Below, one piece after another: positions 2,271 to 12,155 of a DNA stretch of 12,155 nt. This stretch comes from Candidatus Zixiibacteriota bacterium (GTDB taxonomy: Bacteria > SM23-81), in the NCBI GenBank assembly GCA_030628225.1, contig DAOVRJ010000049.1:1-12155 (forward strand), read 5' to 3'. Made by a program: the position numbers and the translations under genes. The notes under the pieces were generated by a model. It was given only the letters and a program-made list of their open reading frames with translations, searched no databases and was not told the DNA's origin. Numbering within the stretch: the stretch's first letter is position 1; each line of letters begins with the position of its first letter.

Positions 2271-2303
2271 GCGAGTGAAAATTTGCCCCACACTTTCTCA
2301 CCC

Positions 2304-2331
2304 AAGAAAAAGGGCTCAACATATTGAGCCC
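2304..2331 (-). terminator. Rho-independent terminator, minus strand
   Basis: A perfect 8-bp stem GGGCTCAA (2312-2319) / TTGAGCCC (2324-2331) closes a 4-nt loop. Read on the minus strand, the stem is followed at once by TTTTTCTT (complement of 2304-2311). This is the classic intrinsic terminator layout. It lies about 250 bp past the stop of the minus-strand TPR membrane protein, so that transcript would carry a long 3' UTR that includes the composite repeat at 2397-2511. Confidence 0.75.
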
Positions 2332-2365
2332 CTGCAGAGATCATCATCCCGATTGCAGTAAATCC

Positions 2366-2387
2366 GGGGCGAAGCCGGTTCGTCCCC
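2366..2387. other. Stem-loop in convergent spacer
   Basis: GGGG-CGAA (2366-2373) pairs with TTCG-CCCC (2379-2387) with one bulged T at 2383 and a GCCGG loop. No T run follows on either strand, so it does not look like a terminator. It would lie in the 3' UTR of the TPR gene. Confidence 0.4.
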
Positions 2388-2579
2388 AGTCATTCACGAA
2401 TCTCGAGTTTCGGCTCTTCATCCAGGATCGGTTTTTCCTTTCCTCCAAACTCTCTAAACTCTCCAAACTCGCTTAACTCTCTGAACTCATTCCCCCATGA
2501 ACACGTGCTTTTGCCCCTTCATCTCCAGCTACGCATGGCGGTGAATCAGACGATAATCTATGGTCTGGTCGTCTCTAAA

Positions 2580-4556
2580 TCAATGCCGAGAGAGCCCTTG
2601 CAATCTTTCCCGTGCTCTTTGATGGTTTGGGTTAAGCTCCAGCGTCCGCCTCCATTCGGCTTTTGCCTCCGGCCACCTTCCCTGTTGCTCATAAGCGCAG
2701 CCCAATATAAAGTGAAAATCGGCATCATTGGGCTTTATTGCTATTGCCTTTTTGAACTCTTGAATCGCCTGGTCAAAGAGCTTCCTCTCTTGATAGAGAA
2801 TCCCCAGGTTGTAATGGGCTAAATCGAATTTGGGATCGATGGCTATTACCTGCTCGTACTGCTGGATGGCCTCATGGTACATCTTTTTGTGCACGTAAAG
2901 GCTGCCCAGATCGAAACGGGCCCTGGCGAGGTTGGGAAGAATAGCAACGGCCTTCTGATACTGCTGGATGGCCTCATCGTACATCTTTTTCTCCCAACAT
3001 GTGAGCCCCAAGCTTAAATGCAATCGCACATTATCGGGCGAAACTGCCAGGGCTCTGCGGTACTCCTCGATGGCCTCGTCCAACAGCCCCACATCCCGAT
3101 AATAGATGGCCAGCTCTTCATGAGCATATGATTGAGATCGCAACGACTTTGTGCTGATCAACAGCTTGAATCTTTTTATGGCCTTATCCGCATCGGCATT
3201 GACCAAAATCCACGGTATGGTGTGCACCAAAGCCACCACCGTTAAGGTCAACCCGATGGATTTCAGTCTTCGTCGATTTCTCACGCAGCCTATCAGAAGA
3301 TAGGCACCCAAAAGGGTGTACGGAATGCTGGGAAGCGAGAGCAGATCCCAATCCCTGCTGGGGCCTATCTTGGGATTCAGGACGAATGTAGACAGAAAAC
3401 AAAACCCGCTGGCGATGATGAAAAACCTAATCAATGGTCTTTTGAAGTTTATCTCTCGACGGTAACCGATGAAAAGCAGAAGACAGAGTATCAGACCCAC
3501 AGGTGATATCAACAGATGCTCGTTGACCATATCTACCAGATGAGCCGGGGAAAACAGGGTATATGGTGGCTGTGCTGTGCTGGAACCCAGGGACAGAAAC
3601 ACATCGCTCTCTGCTCCTGCAAGAAGCTCTATCATACTTCGGCCGGAGAGTATGATCAGCGCGGCCGACAGCAAAATGGGAACAACGAAAGTCCCACTCA
3701 TTTTTGCGAAAAGGAGCCAGTTTGAGCTCCGATGCTTCCGTTTTGCCGAGGCAAGGAAGAGGTAAATCAGTGAGGGGAATAACGCCACCGCGGTGAGATG
3801 GCAGCAGATGGTCAAAGAGAGGGCCAGGGAGGGAAAAAGGATGCTACATCGCCCTTTCAGATGATAACAGGAGAATAAAAGATAGATCAGCACGCCCACG
3901 CTCATCAAGGTGTAGCTTTCGACATAGCCGAAGAAGAGCTGCACCGTCCCCATGGACATCATCAAAGAGAAGACAAGGGCTGCTTTCCAACGATCTTTTC
4001 CCAGGAAATCGGAAAACCACAGCAGGACAAAGACAAAGAATACCCCTCCTATGGCGCTGACCAGGGCGTAAACGACGGCGGCGTCTGCTTCGCTGGCCCC
4101 CTTCATGACGTGGAATAGCCTGGCATGGAGAAACAGATCCAGCAGGCCGGTCAGCTTGAATTGATGTCCGGAGACCAACGATCTGAGGCAAAGGTAGCCA
4201 TCGCCGAGAAAATGGGCTTGAGCCCTGAAAACCCAGAAGGGGACAAAGGAAACGACGGCCAGAGCCAAAAAAACAAGTCGTTTCTTTACCCTGGGGCAGG
4301 TCCTCCGAATCCAATGGAGGATCTTCTCTAGTATGTGGACACTTTTCTTGCTTGCCCATGGGATGCAGACCAAGATGCCGACCGAAACGAGCACGAGCCG
4401 GACGGGCAGGGAGAAGAAAAAGAGGTGATGGATACCCCAGCTTCGTCCGGTGGGGAAAAAAGAAACCAGCAGATGCAGCAGGATCATCAAGATACCAATA
4501 CATGCAACTGCGGCTTCAAGTTTTAACTCTTTTGATTCTTTTGATCCTTTTCCCAT
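2580..4556 (-). CDS. Polytopic membrane protein with five C-terminal TPRs, GT-C glycosyltransferase-like
   Basis: 658 residues. About ten hydrophobic segments lie between residues 15 and 452, followed by five TPRs (about 477-646) with an exact 34-residue period marked by Pro507, 541, 575, 609 and 643. An acidic motif, LGDG (Asp119), sits just after an early membrane segment, where GT-C glycosyltransferases keep a catalytic Asp. GYVESY (210-215) and GPSRDWDLL (398-406) are other candidate functional motifs. The layout (membrane GT-C-like part, then TPRs) resembles eukaryotic TMTC O-mannosyltransferases, so lipid-linked sugar transfer at the inner membrane is a reasonable guess but unproven. 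The ATG at 4556 is the first in-frame start before the membrane part, with no clear Shine-Dalgarno; a CGGGA-AAAA-TCCCG hairpin (4557-4570) abuts it, so the start is uncertain. The hydrophilic first 12 residues come from a repetitive A-rich stretch. No promoter is obvious; read-through from the helicase 458 bp upstream is possible. Confidence 0.85.
   Translation of the reverse strand: MGKGSKESKELKLEAAVACIGILMILLHLLVSFFPTGRSWGIHHLFFFSLPVRLVLVSVGILVCIPWASKKSVHILEKILHWIRRTCPRVKKRLVFLALAVVSFVPFWVFRAQAHFLGDGYLCLRSLVSGHQFKLTGLLDLFLHARLFHVMKGASEADAAVVYALVSAIGGVFFVFVLLWFSDFLGKDRWKAALVFSLMMSMGTVQLFFGYVESYTLMSVGVLIYLLFSCYHLKGRCSILFPSLALSLTICCHLTAVALFPSLIYLFLASAKRKHRSSNWLLFAKMSGTFVVPILLSAALIILSGRSMIELLAGAESDVFLSLGSSTAQPPYTLFSPAHLVDMVNEHLLISPVGLILCLLLFIGYRREINFKRPLIRFFIIASGFCFLSTFVLNPKIGPSRDWDLLSLPSIPYTLLGAYLLIGCVRNRRRLKSIGLTLTVVALVHTIPWILVNADADKAIKRFKLLISTKSLRSQSYAHEELAIYYRDVGLLDEAIEEYRRALAVSPDNVRLHLSLGLTCWEKKMYDEAIQQYQKAVAILPNLARARFDLGSLYVHKKMYHEAIQQYEQVIAIDPKFDLAHYNLGILYQERKLFDQAIQEFKKAIAIKPNDADFHFILGCAYEQQGRWPEAKAEWRRTLELNPNHQRARERLQGLSRH
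2857..2990 (-). repeat. Near-identical TPR-coding DNA repeat
   Basis: Bases 2857-2888 and 2959-2990 match over 32 nt with a single mismatch and lie 102 bp (34 codons) apart. They encode the adjacent helices KKMYDEAIQQYQ and KKMYHEAIQQYE. This suggests a recent internal duplication or gene conversion of a TPR unit inside the membrane protein gene. Confidence 0.75.
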
Positions 4557-4570
4557 CGGGAAAAATCCCG
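4557..4570. other. Small hairpin abutting the TPR gene start
   Basis: CGGGA (4557-4561) and TCCCG (4566-4570) form a 5-bp stem with an AAAA loop (UUUU in the minus-strand mRNA) directly before the ATG at 4556, where a ribosome binding site would be expected. It may hinder initiation or mean the real start is further in. The structure is seen; the effect is inferred. Confidence 0.35.
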
Positions 4571-4639
4571 GTCAACGGTTTGTAAGTGACGCTTGGCCGC
4601 CGTCCCCAATGCCGCGCGATTGGGAGCCTGCTCGTACAA

Positions 4640-4837
4640 GAAGCTGGTTTGTCGAGACTAGAGATTCGAGACTCGGGGGAAATGCGAAAACACGTGTCCG
4701 TGTCGATGTCCATGGCCGCGGAATAAAACCGATTCTGGATGCTGGATGCGGGTTTGTGGGTGAGGAAGCTGGTATGGATGCTGGAGGCTAGAAGCTGGAA
4801 GCTGGTTGGGTCGAGACTAGAGACTTGGGGGAGATGC
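4640..4837. repeat. Direct repeat pair and GGATGCTGG/GAAGCTGG words, spacer between helicase and TPR gene
   Basis: Two ~25-bp direct repeats (4640-4664 and 4798-4823) begin with GAAGCTGGTT and end with TCGAGACTAGAGA; both then run into a similar GGGGGA(A/G)ATGC tail (to 4685 and 4837). Between them lie degenerate words such as CTGGATGCTGGATG, GGATGCTGGAGG and GAAGCTGGAAGCTGG. The word CGAGACTAGAGA also occurs inverted at 10891-10902. No RNA gene or credible CDS is seen here. A separate 6-bp hairpin (CCCAAT/ATTGGG, 4605-4624) lies just before this block. Confidence 0.7.
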
Positions 4838-4860
4838 ATTGAAAATTGATTGGAAATTGA

Positions 4861-5002
4861 AAAATTTGCCCCACTCCGTTTCCTTTCGCTTTTTGCCGCC
4901 TTTAGCTCCGCACTCGCATCGTTCCGAACCTCGAGTTCCAAACTCTCAACTCTCCAAACTCTCTTAACTCGCTAAATTAATTCTCTCACAACCACGTGCT
5001 TT
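4861..5002. repeat. Composite intergenic repeat, copy B
   Basis: This copy contains AAAATTTGCCCCAC (4861-4874), CGAACCTCGAGTT (4925-4937), CTCCAAACTCTCTTAACTC (4952-4970) and CACGTGCTTT (4993-5002), the same words in the same order as 2278-2511. It is shorter because it lacks the stem-loops of that copy. It ends 12 bp from the stop of the helicase gene, so like copy A it sits just past the 3' end of a minus-strand gene. I saw no T-tailed terminator for the helicase in this spacer. Confidence 0.7.
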
Positions 5003-5014
5003 CTCTCTGAACTC

Positions 5015-7183
5015 TCACCTCAAAATCTCCAGCCGCGCATACCTGGCCAACAGCTTCTTATGCACCTTGTCTTTGAAGGCCACGGTCAACTTCAGGTCGT
5101 CGGCATAGCCGCTCAGCTCCACCACCTTGCCAATGCCGAACTTGGGATGCCGGACCACTGATCCCACGCCCACCCGGGGGGTGAACTCATCGTCGGGCCC
5201 GGTCAAGCGGCTATCATCCGCTTGGACGTCTCTTTTGGGGGACCAATCGCCCTGCCCATATCCCTCCACCTCCACCAGCTCGGTGGGAATCTCGTCCAAA
5301 AAACGCGAGCGGAGGCAGCCCATCCCTGCTCCGTACCGCCTTCGCCAATGGCTCCGCGACAGAAATAGCTTCTCCCGGGCGCGGGTCATGCCCACGTACA
5401 TCAGCCGACGCTCCTCCTCCAGCTCCTCAGGGCTCTCCATGGCGCGGGACAGGGGAAAGAGCCCCTCCTCCAGGCCGGCGATGAACACCACCGGAAACTC
5501 CAGCCCCTTGGCGCTGTGCAGGGTCATCAGGGTGACGGCATTGCTCGCCGGATCCCATGCGTCCACGCTGGTCATCAGGGAGACCTCCTCTAAAAAACCG
5601 GTCAAAGAGGCATCCTGGTCGCGCATGAAGAACTCCTCGGTGGCGGTCACCAGCTCGCGGACGTTCTCCGCCCGGGTCTGGGCCTCAACTGTGTTCTCCT
5701 CCATGAGCTTCGTCAAATAGCCGGTGCGTTCCACCACCTCCTGGACGACCTCGTGCACATCCAGGTCCTTGAGGCGGGCCATGAGAGACCGGAACAGCTC
5801 GTGCAGCTCCCCCAGCTTCTCCCGGATCCCCTCCCGCAGATCCTCCATCTTGCCGGCCATCTTGATGGCCTTCAGCAGACCCACACCTTTCTCGGCAGCC
5901 AATGCCTCCAGCTTGCCCAGGGTGGTGGGGCCGATGCCCCGCCTGGGCACGTTGATGATCCGCCGCAGACTGACCGCGTCGTTGGGGTTGGCCACGATCC
6001 GCAGGTAGGCCAGAATGTCCTTGACCTCCTTGCGCTCGTAGAAGCGCACGCCCCCCACGATGACATAGGGCAGGCCTATGCGGCGCAGCTGATCCTCGAA
6101 GCTACGCGACTGGGCATTGATCCGGTAGAGGATGGCGAAATCGGACAGGGCCCTCAGGTTCTGGGACCGTTCCGTCTGGATCTTATCCAGAACGGTCATG
6201 GCCTCTGACCGCTCGTCCAGGGCCTCAAAGAGAGTGATGATCTCCCCGGCCCCCTTGTCCGTCCACAGGGTCTTCTCCTTGCGCCCCCGGTTATGAGCCA
6301 CCACATGTCCGGCGGCGGTGAGGATGTTCTGGGTGGAGCGATAGTTCTGCTCTAACTTGACCACCTTGGTGTCGGGATAGTCCTTCTCGAAGCTGAGTAT
6401 GTTGCCGATGTCCGCACCTCGCCAGCCGTAGATGCTCTGGTCGTCGTCGCCCACAACGCACAGGTTGCGGTGCTTGGAGGCCAACATGTTGACCAGCATG
6501 TACTGGGCGTGATTGGTGTCCTGATACTCGTCCACCAGGATATATTGGAAGCGGTTCTGGTAGCGGGCTAAAATTTTGGGGTGGGCCTGGAAAAGGAAAA
6601 CCATCTTGCTGATCAAATCCCCGAAATCCATGGCGTTGTTGGCCTCCAGGCTCTTCTGGTATCGCTGGTAGACCAAAGCCGCCTTTTGCTCGTAATCGTC
6701 AACGGCCTGGTTGGCGAACTCTTCCGGGGTCATCAGGTTGTGCTTGGCCCCCTCGATGCGGGCCCGGAATCCCTTGGGGGAGATGCGCTCGGCGGAGATG
6801 TTCAGCTCGACCATGGTCCTTTTGACCAGGCTTAACTGATCATCCCCGTCGTAGATGCTGAAGCTGCGGTCATACCCCAGCCTGTTTCCCTCCCGGCGCA
6901 GAATGCCGGCGCAGATAGAGTGAAAAGTGCCCATACGGATGAACCGGCCATCCCTGTCCAGCATCTTGACCACCCGGCCCCTCATCTCCTCGGCGGCCTT
7001 GTTGGTGAAAGTCACCGCCAGGATGTGCTCCGGGCTGACGCCCATTTCTCCCACGAGGTAGGCGATGCGCGTTGTCAGCACACGGGTCTTGCCGCTGCCC
7101 GCCCCGGCCAAGACCAGGACCGGGCCTTCCACATGGGTAACCGCCTCCCGCTGGGCGGGATTTAGATCGGCCAACAGGTTCAC
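5015..7183 (-). CDS. pcrA: ATP-dependent DNA helicase, PcrA/UvrD family
   Basis: 3'-5' superfamily 1A helicase that unwinds DNA in nucleotide excision repair, mismatch repair and removal of stalled complexes. 722 residues, the usual full length. Motifs are complete and in order: Q motif LNPAQREAV (7-15), Walker A GAGSGKT (27-33), Ia TFTNKAAEEM (58-67), TFHS (86-89), II VDEYQDTN (217-224), III VGDDDQSIYGWRGA (244-257), IV QNYRST (279-284), V TLHSAKGLEFPVVF (554-567), VI RRLMYVGMTRARE (592-604). The C-terminal block 673-721 (VGSVVRHPKFGIGKV...) is the small Tudor/SH3-like tail typical of PcrA, which contacts RNA polymerase. The start is GTG: the family N-terminus (M-N-x-L-x-x-L-N-P) begins here and an AGGGAGAG sequence precedes it. 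It lies 86 bp downstream of the STAS gene on the same strand with no clear terminator between, so it is probably in one operon. uvrD would be an equally acceptable name. Confidence 0.96.
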   Translation of the reverse strand: MNLLADLNPAQREAVTHVEGPVLVLAGAGSGKTRVLTTRIAYLVGEMGVSPEHILAVTFTNKAAEEMRGRVVKMLDRDGRFIRMGTFHSICAGILRREGNRLGYDRSFSIYDGDDQLSLVKRTMVELNISAERISPKGFRARIEGAKHNLMTPEEFANQAVDDYEQKAALVYQRYQKSLEANNAMDFGDLISKMVFLFQAHPKILARYQNRFQYILVDEYQDTNHAQYMLVNMLASKHRNLCVVGDDDQSIYGWRGADIGNILSFEKDYPDTKVVKLEQNYRSTQNILTAAGHVVAHNRGRKEKTLWTDKGAGEIITLFEALDERSEAMTVLDKIQTERSQNLRALSDFAILYRINAQSRSFEDQLRRIGLPYVIVGGVRFYERKEVKDILAYLRIVANPNDAVSLRRIINVPRRGIGPTTLGKLEALAAEKGVGLLKAIKMAGKMEDLREGIREKLGELHELFRSLMARLKDLDVHEVVQEVVERTGYLTKLMEENTVEAQTRAENVRELVTATEEFFMRDQDASLTGFLEEVSLMTSVDAWDPASNAVTLMTLHSAKGLEFPVVFIAGLEEGLFPLSRAMESPEELEEERRLMYVGMTRAREKLFLSRSHWRRRYGAGMGCLRSRFLDEIPTELVEVEGYGQGDWSPKRDVQADDSRLTGPDDEFTPRVGVGSVVRHPKFGIGKVVELSGYADDLKLTVAFKDKVHKKLLARYARLEILR

Positions 7184-7608: not shown

Positions 7609-7688
7609 GCTTTACACCCCCTTTATGGGACGTAATAGAATGACCCACAAAGAATTAACCTGTGAGTCCTCTACCTAAATCCACTTAC

Positions 7689-7717
7689 ACAATACAAAGG
7701 ATTGCCGGGGAAGTCAA
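7689..7717 (-). promoter_or_regulatory. Sigma-70-type promoter for STAS and helicase genes
   Basis: On the minus strand: -35 TTGACT (7717-7712), exactly 17 bp, -10 TATTGT (7694-7689). A run of seven A (minus strand) lies just upstream of the -35, like an UP element. Predicted transcription start is near 7682, giving a leader of about 74 nt to the TTG start. Not tested experimentally. Confidence 0.55.
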
Positions 7718-7789
7718 CTGTTTTTTTGCATGCTGTGGAGGAGAATGAGAGTGTCGAGCCCTTTTTTAGGATAGTGCTTTTGAAAAAAG

Positions 7790-7945
7790 GAGTTAGGGAT
7801 TAGTGACCCCGGAAAGACAGGGATTAGGGATCAGGGGTTAGGGACCCCATTTCCACCCCCCAACATGCAACTTACTGTGATAAAAGATGCTTTTCTTGTT
7901 TTCCCCTAACCCCTATACCCTATTCCCTAAACCCTGGAAGGGTTG
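7790..7945. repeat. Telomere-like TTAGGG / CCCTAA inverted block in divergent spacer
   Basis: The left arm (about 7790-7846) is a degenerate tandem of GGGATTAGG and GGGGTTAGGG words. The right arm (about 7902-7935) is the complementary CCCCTAACCCC / CCCTATTCCCTAAACCC. AGGGGTTAGGG (7833-7843) and CCCTAACCCCT (7904-7914) are exact inverse complements about 60 bp apart. A further CCTTTTTT/AAAAAAGG stem (7760-7767 with 7783-7790) lies just to the left. The spacer 7609-8168 holds no convincing CDS; an open frame at 7887-8123 runs through these repeats and is rejected. Confidence 0.65.
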
Positions 7946-8097
7946 GGTTGGGAGGGGGATGTTTCTATCTGATGGTCGGAGACTTCGACTTTCATATTTA
8001 ATCACACTTCATCATTATTTATCAGCTCTCTTCTTTTATAAACAATCCTCCTCAAGACTTCTCAATCTTATCAATCCAGCAGAAAACCATTTAAACC

Positions 8098-8126
8098 TTG
8101 ACAAAACCCTCGCCAACCCATAGACT
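8098..8126 (+). promoter_or_regulatory. Sigma-70-type promoter for the GH13 gene
   Basis: A consensus -35 TTGACA (8098-8103), exactly 17 bp, then TAGACT (8121-8126, 4 of 6 consensus) as -10. The predicted start is near 8133, giving a 5' leader of about 36 nt. A weak purine-rich ribosome site, GAGAG (8157-8161), stands 7 nt before the GTG start codon. Confidence 0.6.
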
Positions 8127-8168
8127 GATAGAAATTGACGATGCCCCATTTTCATAGAGAGTACTGAA

Positions 8169-10751
8169 GTGAACAGGCGATCTCACATTTTTCTCTTAGT
8201 GGCCCTAATTATCGTTCTGCCCCTCTCCCCCCTCCCACACGCCCACCCCTTTCAGGACGACATCTTCTACCAGATCTTCCCCATCTCCTTCCGCGACTCG
8301 GACGGCAACGGGTTCGGGGATTTCGACGGTATCGTCGAGGCCATACCCTACCTGCAGGATCTGAGCATCACCGCCGTGTGGCTCAATCCGGTCTTCTACT
8401 CCAAGACCTATCACGGATACCAGTATGTCCGCCACGACAGTCTCAATCCCCGGTTCGGCAGCGAGGCCGAGTTCATCGCCATGGTGGAGACCCTGCACGA
8501 CGCCGGGATCGATATATACATCGACCTGGTGGCCTACGGGGTGAGCGAGGATCATCCCTTTTTTCAGGATGCGTGGGGCAATCCCTCCTCAGCGTATGAT
8601 CAGTGGTTCGCCTTCACCGACGACGGTAACTGGAACTACTTCGGCTTCGGCGGCGGCTACCACGACTGGCAGGGCAACTGGATCACCCACGTCTTCTGGG
8701 ACCACAATCACCAGCCGGTGCGGGACCATCTGGTGGACAAGCTTTCTTACTGGTTGGATCCGAATGACGATGGGGATTTCCACGACGGCATCGATGGCTT
8801 TCGCATCGATCATCTATCGGTGGACTGGTGGTCTGAGTCGCAATGGGGTTACGATCTGTCCCTGTGGGATGATCTCACGGCCGGACTACGGGAGGTCAAT
8901 CCAAACGTACGCTTCATCGCCGAAGATTCTCACTGGGGGGCGCATCATCCGGAGATTTTCGATCACGGTCTCGATGCGGCCTTCAATATGCCGTTTCTTG
9001 CCTCTTGGGACCGCTATTTACCCTCTCTCCTTTGGTACGCGGAAGGTTGGGAATTAAGCCGAGAGGTTGAAAAAGATCTCCTTCTTCTTCCTGATAGTGG
9101 GCAATGGCTGGGATTGCTGAATAACCACGATGTCAACAGAATCAGTGAGAACCTGATGGATAGTGAAAGCCTCTGCAAGCTGGCTGCAGTGTGGCTCTTC
9201 ACCAGCCCCTTTCCACCCTGCCTGTATTACGGCGAGGAGATCGGCATGCGCGGCCACAAGGTGGATTGGTACGGCAACGATGCCAACGACCTGCACATCC
9301 GCGAGCCCCTCGAATGGAACGCCGTTTTGACCGTCCCGCCGCATGCCCAGTGGTACCAGGGACACTCTCAATACAGCAGCAATCAGTTCGCTCAGGACAA
9401 CGACGGCGTCTCGATCGAGGAGCAGGACTCCGACAGCACCTCGCTGCTCAACCATTATCGCTCTCTGGCTGCCCTGCGCACGGAGCATGCCGCCCTGCAC
9501 ACGGGTGAGTTCGACCCCGTCTGGGTGGGCGATGAGCGGGTCTATGCCTGCCTGCGGCATGACGACACCAGCTCGGTGCTGGTGGCCGCCAATCTGGCCG
9601 ACGGGCCGGTGAACCTGGAGGTGGACTTCGCCGGCACGCCCCTGGGCCTGCTGGAGCGAACGGTGACCGACATCTGGCAGGGCCGGAGCTATGACGATAT
9701 TACCATCGGAAACGGCGACGAGTATCCGCTGCACCTGGACGCGCAATCGGCTGTCATCCTGGGCATCGGCGGGGCCATCGACACCAGCGAACACCGACTG
9801 ATCTTTCAGGTCGACCTGTCGGCCTGGGATCCCGATCCGGACCTCTTTCCGCCGGAGCTACGTGGCGACAAGTACCCCCTGAGCTGGTATTACGGCCAGT
9901 CCATGGACGAGGTAACGGACGGCATCTGGCAGACCGAGGTCGAGTGCAAGGGCTCGCTCCACGGCCAGACGGTGGAATATAAGTACAAGCTGTCCGGGCG
10001 GGGGTTCGCGGACCATTCCATCGGCTGGTCGCCGGATCCCAACCTGAGCTTCGTGGTGGACACCACCCAGCATCCGCAGACCTTGACCTACAATGGAACG
10101 GGCTGGACACAGCCGTACCGGGAACATCCGCTGCGTTTCGTCATCGACCTGTCCCACTGGGAACAGCAGCCCTTCCAACATGACCTGGAGGTGCGGGGAG
10201 ACTTCGAGCCCTTGAGCTGGTATGATGGCATCGATACGGAATATGCGGGCGAGGGCATCTGGTCGCAGACGGTCATCATGACCCTGGCCCAGAACACCTG
10301 GTTCTACTATAAATTCAAGCTGAACGGACCGCAGTTCTCCAGCCAGGGCGAGGGCTGGACCCCGGGCGGGAACCGCTATGTCTCGGCCGATCTCAGCGGG
10401 GACACCCTGGTCGTCGTGTACGACGGCGACACCTGGTATCAGCCGTATGAGACTTCTGTTGACGCAGATAACGAATCACCTCTACCCCAAAAATTCCGTC
10501 TATATCAAAACTATCCCAATCCGTTCAACGCCGCTACCACCATCCGCTATGACCTGCCGGAGAAGAGCAGAGTGCAGGTGCACATCTTTAACGTGAGAGG
10601 TCAATTGGTGGAGAGACTGGTGGACGAGAGGCAAGGACCCGGTCATCATGACATCGTCTGGGATGCGAAGAATCTCAGCTCGGGGATCTACTTCTACCAG
10701 ATCATCGCCGGGGAGAACCGGGCGACGGGGAAGTGTTTGCTGGTGAGGTGA
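8169..10751 (+). CDS. Secreted GH13 alpha-amylase-family protein with two beta-sandwich modules and a T9SS sorting domain
   Basis: 860 residues with a GTG start. Residues 1-25 are a signal peptide (RR, hydrophobic core, PHA before the likely cut). A GH13 barrel follows (about 31-535), opening IFYQIFPISFRDSDGNGFGD. Catalytic residues present: nucleophile Asp214 in GFRIDH with Arg212, acid/base Glu252 in FIAEDSHWG, and stabiliser Asp321 in NNHD. Region I is abnormal: DLVAYGVSEDHP (119-130) where the family has D-x-V-x-N-H, so Asn and His are Tyr123 and Gly124. Two tandem modules (about 543-650 and 655-760) share F-V/I-DLS-W...RGD...LSWY...GIW...V-YKFKL...W and resemble CBM20/CBM48-like starch-binding domains. 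Residues 774-860 are a FlgD-like T9SS sorting domain with QNYPNPFN (780-787) and SSGIYFYQI. Likely an outer-surface or secreted alpha-glucan hydrolase; exact substrate and subfamily cannot be told. Stands alone between its own promoter and a repeat-rich spacer. Confidence 0.92.
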   Translation: MNRRSHIFLLVALIIVLPLSPLPHAHPFQDDIFYQIFPISFRDSDGNGFGDFDGIVEAIPYLQDLSITAVWLNPVFYSKTYHGYQYVRHDSLNPRFGSEAEFIAMVETLHDAGIDIYIDLVAYGVSEDHPFFQDAWGNPSSAYDQWFAFTDDGNWNYFGFGGGYHDWQGNWITHVFWDHNHQPVRDHLVDKLSYWLDPNDDGDFHDGIDGFRIDHLSVDWWSESQWGYDLSLWDDLTAGLREVNPNVRFIAEDSHWGAHHPEIFDHGLDAAFNMPFLASWDRYLPSLLWYAEGWELSREVEKDLLLLPDSGQWLGLLNNHDVNRISENLMDSESLCKLAAVWLFTSPFPPCLYYGEEIGMRGHKVDWYGNDANDLHIREPLEWNAVLTVPPHAQWYQGHSQYSSNQFAQDNDGVSIEEQDSDSTSLLNHYRSLAALRTEHAALHTGEFDPVWVGDERVYACLRHDDTSSVLVAANLADGPVNLEVDFAGTPLGLLERTVTDIWQGRSYDDITIGNGDEYPLHLDAQSAVILGIGGAIDTSEHRLIFQVDLSAWDPDPDLFPPELRGDKYPLSWYYGQSMDEVTDGIWQTEVECKGSLHGQTVEYKYKLSGRGFADHSIGWSPDPNLSFVVDTTQHPQTLTYNGTGWTQPYREHPLRFVIDLSHWEQQPFQHDLEVRGDFEPLSWYDGIDTEYAGEGIWSQTVIMTLAQNTWFYYKFKLNGPQFSSQGEGWTPGGNRYVSADLSGDTLVVVYDGDTWYQPYETSVDADNESPLPQKFRLYQNYPNPFNAATTIRYDLPEKSRVQVHIFNVRGQLVERLVDERQGPGHHDIVWDAKNLSSGIYFYQIIAGENRATGKCLLVR

Positions 10752-10822
10752 AAACAAAGTGGCAGCGGCAATGGCAATGGCAGGAGAAGAATAGTCGGCA
10801 GCAGGCAGTAGGCAGCAAGCAG
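10752..10822. repeat. GGCAG/GGCAA low-complexity repeat after the GH13 gene
   Basis: Degenerate 6-8-nt words: GGCAGCGGCAATGGCAATGG (10761-10780) and GGCAGCAGGCAGTAGGCAGC (10797-10816). It begins 10 bp after the stop codon. No coding or structural RNA signal was seen. Confidence 0.55.
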
Positions 10823-10839
10823 ATCAAAAAATGTAGCGT

Positions 10840-10865
10840 CCTCACTCCTGTGAGGTCGAGCTTTT
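10840..10865 (+). terminator. Weak possible terminator downstream of GH13 gene
   Basis: CCTCAC (10840-10845) and GTGAGG (10850-10855) form a 6-bp stem with a TCCT loop, followed after six bases by CTTTTCT. The stem is short and the T run is offset, so it could equally be part of the repeat landscape. It is the only T-followed hairpin I noticed in the 478 bp after the gene. Confidence 0.35.
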
Positions 10866-10872
10866 CTCCTTC

Positions 10873-11074
10873 CGAGTCTCCAGTCTCGAGTCTCTAGTCT
10901 CGCCCTCTATACTTCGCCTCATTGTATTTGCCTTTAACCAGCATCCAGGATCGGTTCTTCTTTTCTTTTACCAGTATCCAGGATCGCGCATCCAGCATCT
11001 GTTTTTTCCCAACGCTCCAAACTCTCTAAACTCGCCTAACTCTCTCAACTCTCAAAACTATAATCCAGGATCTG
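10873..11074. repeat. Intergenic repeat cluster D (GAGTCTC, ATCCAGGATC and CTCCAAACTC words)
   Basis: Three word families in succession. GAGTCTCCAGTCTCGAGTCTC with TCTCTAGTCTCG (10874-10902) contains the inverse of the 12-nt word in the 4640-4837 block. ATCCAG(G/C)ATC occurs four times (10943, 10976, 10990, 11063). CTCCAAACTCTCTAAACTC (11015-11033) is identical over 19 nt to 2443-2461. CATCCAGGATCGGTT (10942-10956) is identical to 2419-2433. No ORF or RNA gene is visible. Confidence 0.7.
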
Positions 11075-11109
11075 TCTTTTTCCCGCTAAATCTTAAATAA
11101 ATTAACCTC

Positions 11110-11138
11110 TTGACAAATCACCGAGTTTCTGGTAAAAT
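11110..11138 (+). promoter_or_regulatory. Strong sigma-70-type promoter for the C25 peptidase gene
   Basis: Perfect -35 TTGACA (11110-11115), exactly 17 bp, -10 TAAAAT (11133-11138, 5 of 6), and an extended -10 TG at 11130-11131. The predicted start is A11145, giving a leader of about 85 nt. This is the best promoter match in the window. Confidence 0.78.
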
Positions 11139-11144
11139 GTATTT

Positions 11145-11229
11145 ATGGGGAGTAGTCGGCCCCTAATGTTTTTTCCAAAGCCAATCAGATTATCAATGCT
11201 CTTCTCCACCCACCTGAGGAGGTGTTTTA
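11145..11229 (+). promoter_or_regulatory. Structured 5' leader of the C25 peptidase gene
   Basis: Right after the predicted start, GGGG (11147-11150) and CCCC (11160-11163) can pair around a 9-nt loop, followed by T6 at 11169-11174. At the end of the leader CACCT (11211-11215) and AGGTG (11220-11224) pair around GAGG and would bury the strong ribosome binding site GAGGAGGTG (11216-11224), which is well placed 5 nt before the ATG. The 5' word GGGGAGTAG equals a signature of yybP-ykoY manganese riboswitches, but the leader is short and I could not build the rest of that fold. Confidence 0.4.
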
Positions 11230-12155
11230 ATGAGAACTCGTCAATTCACGTTCTCCATCCTAGCCATCCTGATAACCCTGGTGGCCTATCAGGGCGCTTA
11301 CGCGGCCCAGGAGACCACCGTGACCCTCTCCTTCGAGCCGGAGCAGTTTCTCTTCGACCAGGTACGCGGCTACGACCGGGTGCGCCTGGCCGATGAGAGC
11401 TTGATCTGCCGAGTAGGAGAACCGGTCTTGCCGGCCAGGCAGGTGCGCGTGGCCATTCCCGCCGGGACCGAGGCCGTGAAGATCGGCGTGCGCTCGCTGG
11501 ACAGCGAGCAGATTCCCGGCAGCTACCATATCTTCCCCGGACAACCGCCCAGGCGCCTGGACGGCAGCTCGCCAGTTCCCTTCGTGGAGCCGGACGAGCA
11601 GGTGTACGGCTCCACCCTGGCCTATCCGGAGATGCTGGCTCAGCTGGATGGGCAGACGGATCTGGCCGGACAGCAGATGGCCGTGGTGACCGTGTATCCG
11701 CTGCAGTATGTGCCGGCCACCGGACAGTTGGTGCTGCACCGTGAGCTGGAGATCACCGTGGAGAGCCGTCCCGGGTATGTGTCCCGTGAGTCATACGCCA
11801 AGTTCACCGATAAGCAGCGGGAGATGTATGAGCAGAGAGTGCGCGGCATGGTGGTCAATCCCCAGGACGTTTTTCTGAACCCGCCGATGAGCAGTCCTTC
11901 CAAGGCGCTTCCGGCCGGTGACTTCGACCACGTAGTCATCACATCTTCCTCTTACAGCTCATATTTCGACGATCTGGTAGAATGGCACAACAAGCGCGGC
12001 CTGCCGGACACGGTGGTGACCACAACATACATCTATGCCAACTACAGCGGCTCGGACAACCAGGAGAGGATCCGCAACTTCGTCATCGACGCCCACAGCA
12101 CCTGGGGGACCACCTATTTCCTGATCGGCGGAGAGGACGGCACCGTGCCCTTTGA
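11230..12155 (+). CDS. Peptidase family C25 (gingipain-like), N-terminal part, cut by the window end
   Basis: Open from ATG 11230 to the window end (308 complete codons plus 2 bases). Residues 1-25 form a signal peptide ending AYA before AQ. Residues ~27-215 look like the C25 propeptide. From ~232 the catalytic-domain start is recognisable: DHVVITSSSYSSYFDDLVEW, the KRGLPDTVVTT segment, the helix ERIRNFVIDAH and the strand YFLIGGEDGTVPF, which matches the family's Y-L-L-V-G-D...P pattern. The catalytic His and Cys lie beyond the window and cannot be checked, nor can a C-terminal sorting domain. In Porphyromonas these enzymes are T9SS-exported cysteine proteases; here secretion and protein degradation are inferred from family and from the T9SS-tagged neighbour. 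Start choice is firm: GAGGAGGTG stands 5 nt upstream and the signal peptide begins at once. It has its own strong promoter, so it is a separate unit from the GH13 gene. Confidence 0.85.
   Translation, partial: MRTRQFTFSILAILITLVAYQGAYAAQETTVTLSFEPEQFLFDQVRGYDRVRLADESLICRVGEPVLPARQVRVAIPAGTEAVKIGVRSLDSEQIPGSYHIFPGQPPRRLDGSSPVPFVEPDEQVYGSTLAYPEMLAQLDGQTDLAGQQMAVVTVYPLQYVPATGQLVLHRELEITVESRPGYVSRESYAKFTDKQREMYEQRVRGMVVNPQDVFLNPPMSSPSKALPAGDFDHVVITSSSYSSYFDDLVEWHNKRGLPDTVVTTTYIYANYSGSDNQERIRNFVIDAHSTWGTTYFLIGGEDGTVPF

Follow-up and report, generated by a model that had tools for sequence, protein, structure and literature searches.

Intergenic heptamer-type repeats are already known in bacteria, and the closest to those considered here in unit length and placement are the GGGNATC and GGGGA(C/T)T heptamers of Xanthomonas and Nostoc, which form inverted pairs in intergenic regions, vary in sequence and length between relatives and have no known function (PMC4692102). 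On the coding strand they lie near the stop codon, and on the non-coding strand ahead of the start, regardless of how the open reading frame is oriented (PMC4692102). Here we describe arrays of 7- and 9-nucleotide units in the spacers of a 12,155-nucleotide stretch of DNA (contig DAOVRJ010000049.1 of assembly GCA_030628225.1; 'the window' below) from Candidatus Zixiibacteriota bacterium (GTDB lineage SM23-81), and across the genome to which it belongs. What is new is their organisation as multi-family inverted mosaics, built from the families A9 (GAGTTNRGM)n, B7 (CGARTCT)n, C7 (CNAGNAT)n, D7 (GGARYKS)n and E7 (GNAAANT)n and the minor families G7, H7 and GCAG. On balance, and with restrained confidence, we take these mosaics to be genome-wide, lineage-specific interspersed repeats that are non-autonomous, copied in blocks and tolerated at the 3' ends of genes.

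As in Xanthomonas and Nostoc, the units of B7 to H7 are mainly intergenic 7-nucleotide tandem repeats (A9 has period 9) that obey the same placement rule and stand in inverted pairs. In contrast to the one G-quadruplex-forming unit type described there, the host has at least eight unit families, one of them 9 nucleotides long and most not G-quadruplex-forming (only the minor G7 and H7 fit a GGGNATC-like unit by sequence, and A9, B7, C7 and E7 have no G-tracts), and conserved connectors and fixed-length cores assemble these into lineage-restricted mosaics. The STRR and TAACTGA heptamers of Calothrix, other cyanobacteria and Beggiatoaceae are likewise short tandem heptamers found in many intergenic regions; however, TAACTGA units repeat almost exactly and sit immediately before start codons, whereas the host arrays are degenerate and inverted and favour stops (PMC4679880).

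REP elements and BIMEs resemble the host mosaics in being high-copy intergenic palindromic mosaics, often downstream of genes, which can supply a TAG stop, as described for GTAG REPs (PMC3733652, PMC2817692). The stems of the host, in contrast, are 7- or 9-nucleotide arrays, and neither these nor the D, C and B modules contain a 20-40 bp palindrome with a GTAG or CGTC foot. BOX elements have fixed boxA and boxC ends. Those of Streptococcus pneumoniae share with the host mosaics a modular build from small repeats with variable inner repeats, lineage restriction, structure and a presumed parasitic nature (PMC3049150), but the host mosaics combine many array families in varying module order, with no common ends comparable to conserved boxA and boxC around a variable number of boxB. 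Literature searches returned no description of such a mosaic, and the Rfam covariance models gave no match in the window or in six array-rich loci, in agreement with a first-pass annotation of the window that knew of no named family. The best reading would be of repeats that behave like BIME or BOX elements and whose arms consist of heptamer-type repeats such as those of Xanthomonas and Nostoc.

Array families and the order of their modules

The host genome (G000; 2.34 Mb in 306 contigs, of which the window is C186) was compared with genomes from another genus of its family (G001) and from the same phylum (G002). Genes were called with a simple home-made hexamer model, and most of the host loci behind the statistics were picked for carrying arrays. 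The array families were defined by regular expressions, so that letters fixed in a pattern are fixed by construction and the free positions are what is measured. Among 191 A9 units, positions 1-5 are GAGTT by search definition and position 8 is G in 188, while position 6 accepts any base, position 7 A, G or T, and position 9 mostly A or C. Adjacent units resemble each other no more than random ones do (identical in 7% versus 10% of cases in A9 and 2% versus 9% in D7), and those of B7 and C7 are more dissimilar than when units are permuted within arrays (p 0.0055 and 0.0035); likeness is lower than expected in both permutations for B7, within arrays only for C7 and genome-wide only for D7. Slippage would leave neighbours more alike, the opposite of what is seen, which disfavours a simple recent origin of this kind; the survival of only imperfect, stable arrays is a possible cause.

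Arrays of one family form inverted pairs with the purine-rich strand first: D+ is followed by D- after about 38 bp (14 times) and C+ by C- after about 70 bp (9 times), the reverse order of either being seen 0 times. The D arms vary at the free unit positions and enclose a core, mostly of 34-45 bp, that is nearly identical in many copies (CCCCCACTCCATCCCAGATATTATTGTTTTTGCTTTT), and C7 and B7 alternate through the connectors CGGTTTTTCTTTTAA and CGGCCTTTAA or CGGCTCTTCAT. A conserved word order, as had been proposed for the window, is thus borne out as A-D-core-D-A and as the alternation of C and B across fixed connectors. Spacers that carry arrays form imperfect fold-backs, and reading into them from either bordering gene gives a purine-rich strand. 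Between two called genes, A9 arrays number 11 on the plus and 1 on the minus strand in the left half of the spacer and 0 and 19 in the right; when all arrays are counted, the figures are 54/23 and 15/64 (p 1e-10), with p < 0.02 in each gene-orientation class. A general purine skew was rejected as the cause of this order, spacers in unselected contigs having no such skew.

The connectors join modules into blocks of 50-400 bp that recur between spacers: 1050 high-scoring segment pairs of at least 50 bp connect 80 of 192 spacers, the longest reaching about 390 bp with D+D-A- together.

Two spacers of the window as different mosaics

The first-pass annotation had read two spacers of the window as copies of one element, in which four words keep their order amid variable filling. 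A sequence check bears out the words in position and orientation: AAAATTTGCCCCAC at 2278 and 4861, CGAATCTCGAGTT at 2397 with CGAACCTCGAGTT at 4925, CTCCAAACTCTCT(A/T)AACTC at 2443 and 4952, and CACGTGCTTT at 2502 and 4993. They span 234 bp in copy 1, which ends 68 bp short of the stop of the minus-strand gene at 2580, and 142 bp in copy 2, which ends 12 bp short of that of the gene at 5015, likewise on the minus strand. That they mark a real dispersed feature rather than chance low complexity also holds: 60 bp of the two spacers align at 82% identity, and a whole-genome query with segment 4640-5020 gave about 70 matches in the host, the best outside itself at E 5.6e-12. The words are, however, not unique landmarks but single units of degenerate tandem arrays with periods 9 and 7 (CACGTGCTTT being a small motif near A9), and the spacers are not one element twice but two different mosaics, of common vocabulary and order, from a repertoire of at least eight array families and conserved cores. 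The second word, although present in both, is probably not homologous between them, because it belongs to a B7 array in copy 1 (CGAATCTCGAGTTTCGG) and to a degenerate D7 stretch in copy 2 (TTCCGAACCTCGAGTTCC). Two further spacers of the window carry arrays, one at 7609-8168 and one, overlooked at first, at 10752-11229 (A9/B7/C7, with A9 at 11015-11060).

Placement at gene ends and comparison of orthologous spacers

The gathering of copies at gene 3' ends is clearest for A9, whose arrays are concentrated just after same-sense stops: 13 of 31 start within 30 bp of one, against 1.5 +/- 1.1 under random placement (maximum 7 in 2000 trials), and several start within the stop codon itself (TGA-GTT). 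An intrinsic terminator stands between stop and array in 6 of 34 same-sense cases. The array therefore begins where the transcription unit ends and not always inside it, which argues against an obligatory role in the 3' untranslated region.

One pair of orthologous spacers presents a filled and an empty site. At L115 of the host and L288 of G001 the same two genes are neighbours; the G001 spacer is about 55 bp long without arrays, whereas that of the host is 348 bp, with an A+D+D-B-C-H+C- block beginning 2 bp past the stop. Miniature inverted-repeat transposable elements are marked by terminal inverted repeats together with a target-site duplication; the D modules have inverted arms, and this filled/empty pair has no clear duplication. 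At L116, the gene (whose product we take to be DUF502-like) matches its G001 counterpart (L286) at 83% up to residue 210 of 217, and its final codons and TAG are the repeat phrase GAAAGGCGGATCCTGGATTATAG, running into TTTTGAGAG. The filled/empty pair and the repeat-made gene end point to insertion at gene ends. The gene at L112 had no G001 match at the threshold used.

Elsewhere the arrays appear to have been exchanged in place. At L161:9267 and G001 L289, which share the next gene, both genera have A9 behind the same TAG, but its units differ, as does the remainder of the spacer. The end of the UvrD protein is common to the window and G001, but the G001 spacer behind it has B7/H7-type arrays around a terminator and no A9. 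These comparisons suggest that an array's site and style can endure even as its content changes. In G001, the terminal residues of a methyltransferase-like orthologue (L287, contig C68) are encoded by a C7-like stretch (CTGGATCCTTGTGAAAAGAAAAAT), and the host's methyltransferase-like gene has its stop within an A9 array; C-termini derived from repeats may be frequent in this repeat family.

The D element as a hairpin

The D element, with at least 23 copies in the host and none in G001, folds at z -1.0 to -6.6, and of 22 copies 17 share the orientation of the upstream gene. In a 16-copy alignment with 21 pairs, 96.4% of cells hold standard pairs, versus 27-57% for slid structures; inner pairs are almost never broken, and G.U pairs number 2.9 per 21 on the upstream-gene-sense strand versus 0.65 on the other. 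Pairing exceeds that of shuffles only slightly (24/500) and covariation marginally so (32/500), with two pairs changed on both sides. Element-specific compensatory change between the arms was not found, within-copy pairing being 18.0 and between-copy pairing 17.8 of 21. The covariance test proposed for the window's repeats thus yields a hairpin that is real at the level of the D family, with little covariation beyond it, and it points weakly to selection on RNA, the copies not being independent. A function as intrinsic terminators was rejected, since the T-run is in the loop and not after the stem.

Spread across genomes

Allowing two mismatches at most, a four-unit A9 pattern has 165 matches in the host (reversed control 9), 27 in G001 and 0 in 39 other genomes, two of the same phylum included. 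The B7 pattern has 113, 17, and 3 in two of 191 others. The idea that A9 is widespread was discarded: a 16-nucleotide A9 pattern gave 69 scattered matches in 84,980 genomes, only three with a run of at least three units. In contigs taken regardless of arrays, the sequence with period-7 similarity amounts to 419 bp per 100 kb in G000, 327 in G001 and 541 in G002, versus 70 in 68 unrelated control contigs; by strict criteria, 6 of 58 spacers in an unbiased host sample hold arrays.

In G002 (L219), degenerate heptamer arrays with another vocabulary (CAGTGGTCAGCGGTCAGCAGTCAGC; AGGTTAAAGGTGATAGG; AAAGCTGAAAGCCG) lie inside coding sequence, at 2720-2770, 4819-4868 and 10048-10094, with paired stretches about 150 bp downstream. 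They occupy C-terminal sorting-signal-like domains (NYPNPFN...), in place of strand-forming segments.

Features of the window and other repeats of the host

Table 1. Array modules and associated motifs in the window
Feature	Positions	Strand	Remarks
E7-type (GNAAANT)n array end motif AAAATTTGCCCCAC	2278..2291	+	purine-to-pyrimidine switch point of spacer 1
Intrinsic-terminator-like hairpin GGGGCTCAATATGTTGAGCCC-TTTTT	2311..2332	-	of the minus-strand TPR gene, beyond the arrays
B7 array CGAATCTCGAGTTTCGG	2397..2413	-	family with 113 genome matches
C7 unit and conserved connector CATCCAGGATCGGTTTTTCCTTTC	2419..2442	-	connector found at many loci, between C7 and B7 or A9
A9 array, 5 units	2443..2488	-	minus (gene-sense) strand
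K motif ATGAACACGTGCTTTTG	2495..2511	+	adjoins A9
B7 array CGAGACTAGAGATTCGAGACTCGG	4653..4676	+	
C7 arrays (GATGCTGGATGCGGG ... GGATGCTGGAGGCTAGAAGCTGGAAGCTGG)	4738..4806	+	
Second B7 remnant and E7-type stretch, end AAAATTTGCCCCAC	4811..4874	+	from sequence
Degenerate D7 stretch (AGCTCCGCACTCGCATCGTTCCGAACCTCGAGTTCC)	4901..4938	-	sequence set beside genome D7 units
A9 array	4939..4979	-	uvrD-sense strand
K motif CTCACAACCACGTGCTTT	4984..5002	+	
One A9 unit (GAGTTCAGAGAG)	5003..5014	-	abuts uvrD stop TGA; reads TGA gagttcagagag
G7 array hairpin (fold-back)	7795..7935	.	AGGGATTAGGGATCAGGGGTTAGGG (7819-7843) facing CCCTAACCCCTATACCCTATTCCCT (7904-7928); 84% complementary, 60 nt apart
B7 array, third mosaic spacer	10873..10900	-	
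Three C7 arrays with CGGTTCTTCTTTTCTTTTA connector	10938..11003	-	
A9 array, third mosaic spacer, then ACTATAATCCAGGATCTG	11015..11060	-	

Several of these motifs recur beyond the window (Table 1). Exact AAATTTGCCCCAC has five copies in the genome, including positions directly after E7 arrays in L100, L101 and L111; the K motif ATGAACACGTGCTTTTG recurs near A9 at 4984-5002 and in L113, with ACGAACACGTGTTC near A9 in L112; and a GACTCAATATATTGAGCCCTTTTTT version of the TPR-gene terminator hairpin sits in G001's orthologous uvrD spacer. The window also encodes an alpha-amylase-like secreted protein (8169-10751), whose C-terminal domain is sorting-signal-like (YQNYPNPFN...), and, after it, a further secreted protein (11230-12153), both named from sequence reading only.

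A repeat of about 400 bp, 85-88% identical between L205:3206-3831, L161:1527-2264 and L157:1834-2600, consists of E7 arrays and a G+C-rich core (GAGGGGGTAGCGG...); Rfam gave no match in L205 or L157.

All four genomes examined carry Y1 transposases, the host having four. On contig C179 (L241, about 1290-1960) a RAYT-like Y1 gene is flanked by GTAG palindromes (TGTAGCGTCCTCACTCCTGTGAGGACG), not by inverted A9, D7 or C7 modules, and a genuine GTAG REP/RAYT pair coexists with the array mosaics as a separate family. The GTAG-footed palindrome TGTAGCGTCCTCACTCCTGTGAGG(ACGG) is found on C179, in L172 and scattered elsewhere, and partly at window 10832-10858. In L233 (contig C221, 1207-2142) an IS200-like TnpA gene stands between hairpins CCCCCGCTCGTGAGCGGGGG and inside E7 arrays, and a similar hairpin remnant lies in L010.

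Origin and maintenance of the mosaics

Each module is a short degenerate tandem array, and modules of the same kind stand as inverted pairs around a core of near-constant length. In the scenario that we favour, homology-driven recombination, or else template switching during replication, would carry blocks from one spacer to another, and gain, loss and exchange of units would reshape them in situ. They would survive where they do least harm, flush with stops or just after terminators, and would sometimes provide a gene's stop codon and last residues; we infer tolerance here rather than a selected function. Transcription must run through many of the arrays, giving purine-rich 3' tails or hairpins, so that a modest influence on the 3' ends of mRNAs is plausible and an RNA-hairpin role possible.

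Several points weigh against this scenario. The arrays have no mobilising enzyme associated with them; the fixed unit positions and the preserved one-strand pairing of the D stem hint at selection over mere tolerance; and gain cannot be told from loss with certainty, because the only close relative belongs to another genus. The choice of host loci for their arrays and the home-made gene calls also count here, as does the kinship among repeat copies, through which the counts and p values overstate independence.

A selected function as 3'-end RNA elements, with arrays and hairpins acting in the transcript past stops as mRNA stabilisers or attenuating terminators, is improbable on the whole but deserves real weight. 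It would account for the way arrays hug same-sense stop codons, for the good folding and prevalent upstream-gene sense of the D elements, and for a stem that tolerates G.U on that very strand and keeps its inner pairs; it sits poorly with the A9 arrays past an intrinsic terminator, the same inverted order in divergent spacers, D arms that pair equally well with those of other copies, covariation marginally above shuffles and the T-run in the loop. We are more doubtful of ordinary replication slippage, by which each array would have grown from a chance seed at a stop under a polymerase favouring period 7 or 9. A heptamer excess is known in bacteria, and a polymerase-footprint idea is cited for it (PMC4692102); stop codons such as TGA-GTT are readable as seeds, a few arrays are homogeneous (L172, with GAGTTTGGA repeated), and L112 shows a duplicated four-unit block. 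Against this stand the adjacent units, no more alike than random ones in any of the four families measured, and the fact that unlinked loci have in common which positions vary and which are fixed, as well as connectors, cores and multi-module blocks.

Spread as REP/BIME-type elements by a RAYT (TnpA-REP) transposase is quite unlikely. The host has the enzymes, its C179 gene is flanked by a GTAG palindrome also present at window 10832, and GTAG REPs too are reported to supply stop codons (PMC3733652); but the REP tied to that gene differs from the arrays in sequence (TGTAGCGTCCTCACTCCTGTGAGGACG), these being tandem repeats of 7 or 9 nucleotides without a GTAG or CGTC foot, and among the four host transposase loci a B7 array lies near the RAYT-like gene only, with E7 arrays around an IS200-like gene. 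Least credible, and very improbable, is an origin as DNA-level binding arrays for a nucleoid or other protein reading the fixed unit positions: every family does combine strongly fixed with strongly free positions (GAGTT fixed and position 6 any; C.AG.AT with two free), whereas at least eight unrelated unit families in one genome, their fast turnover from one genus to the next and a placement bound to gene ends speak against it. We also regard as unlikely a dedicated lineage process that writes and rewrites degenerate 7- and 9-nucleotide arrays at gene ends into composite fold-backs defining 3' ends, to which units with set fixed and free letters and neighbours avoiding identity would correspond. 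If true, it would represent a kind of element explained neither by slippage nor by REP transposition nor by the known behaviour of simple sequence repeats.

The mosaics add to a sparse literature on degenerate heptamer arrays. They show that one genome can organise several array families into a grammar of inverted modules with constant cores, and that A9 arrays start at stop codons, where a repeat can supply the stop codon and C-terminal residues of a gene. The origin of the arrays is thereby made testable by strain comparison, and the annotation of gene ends in metagenome-assembled genomes is affected.

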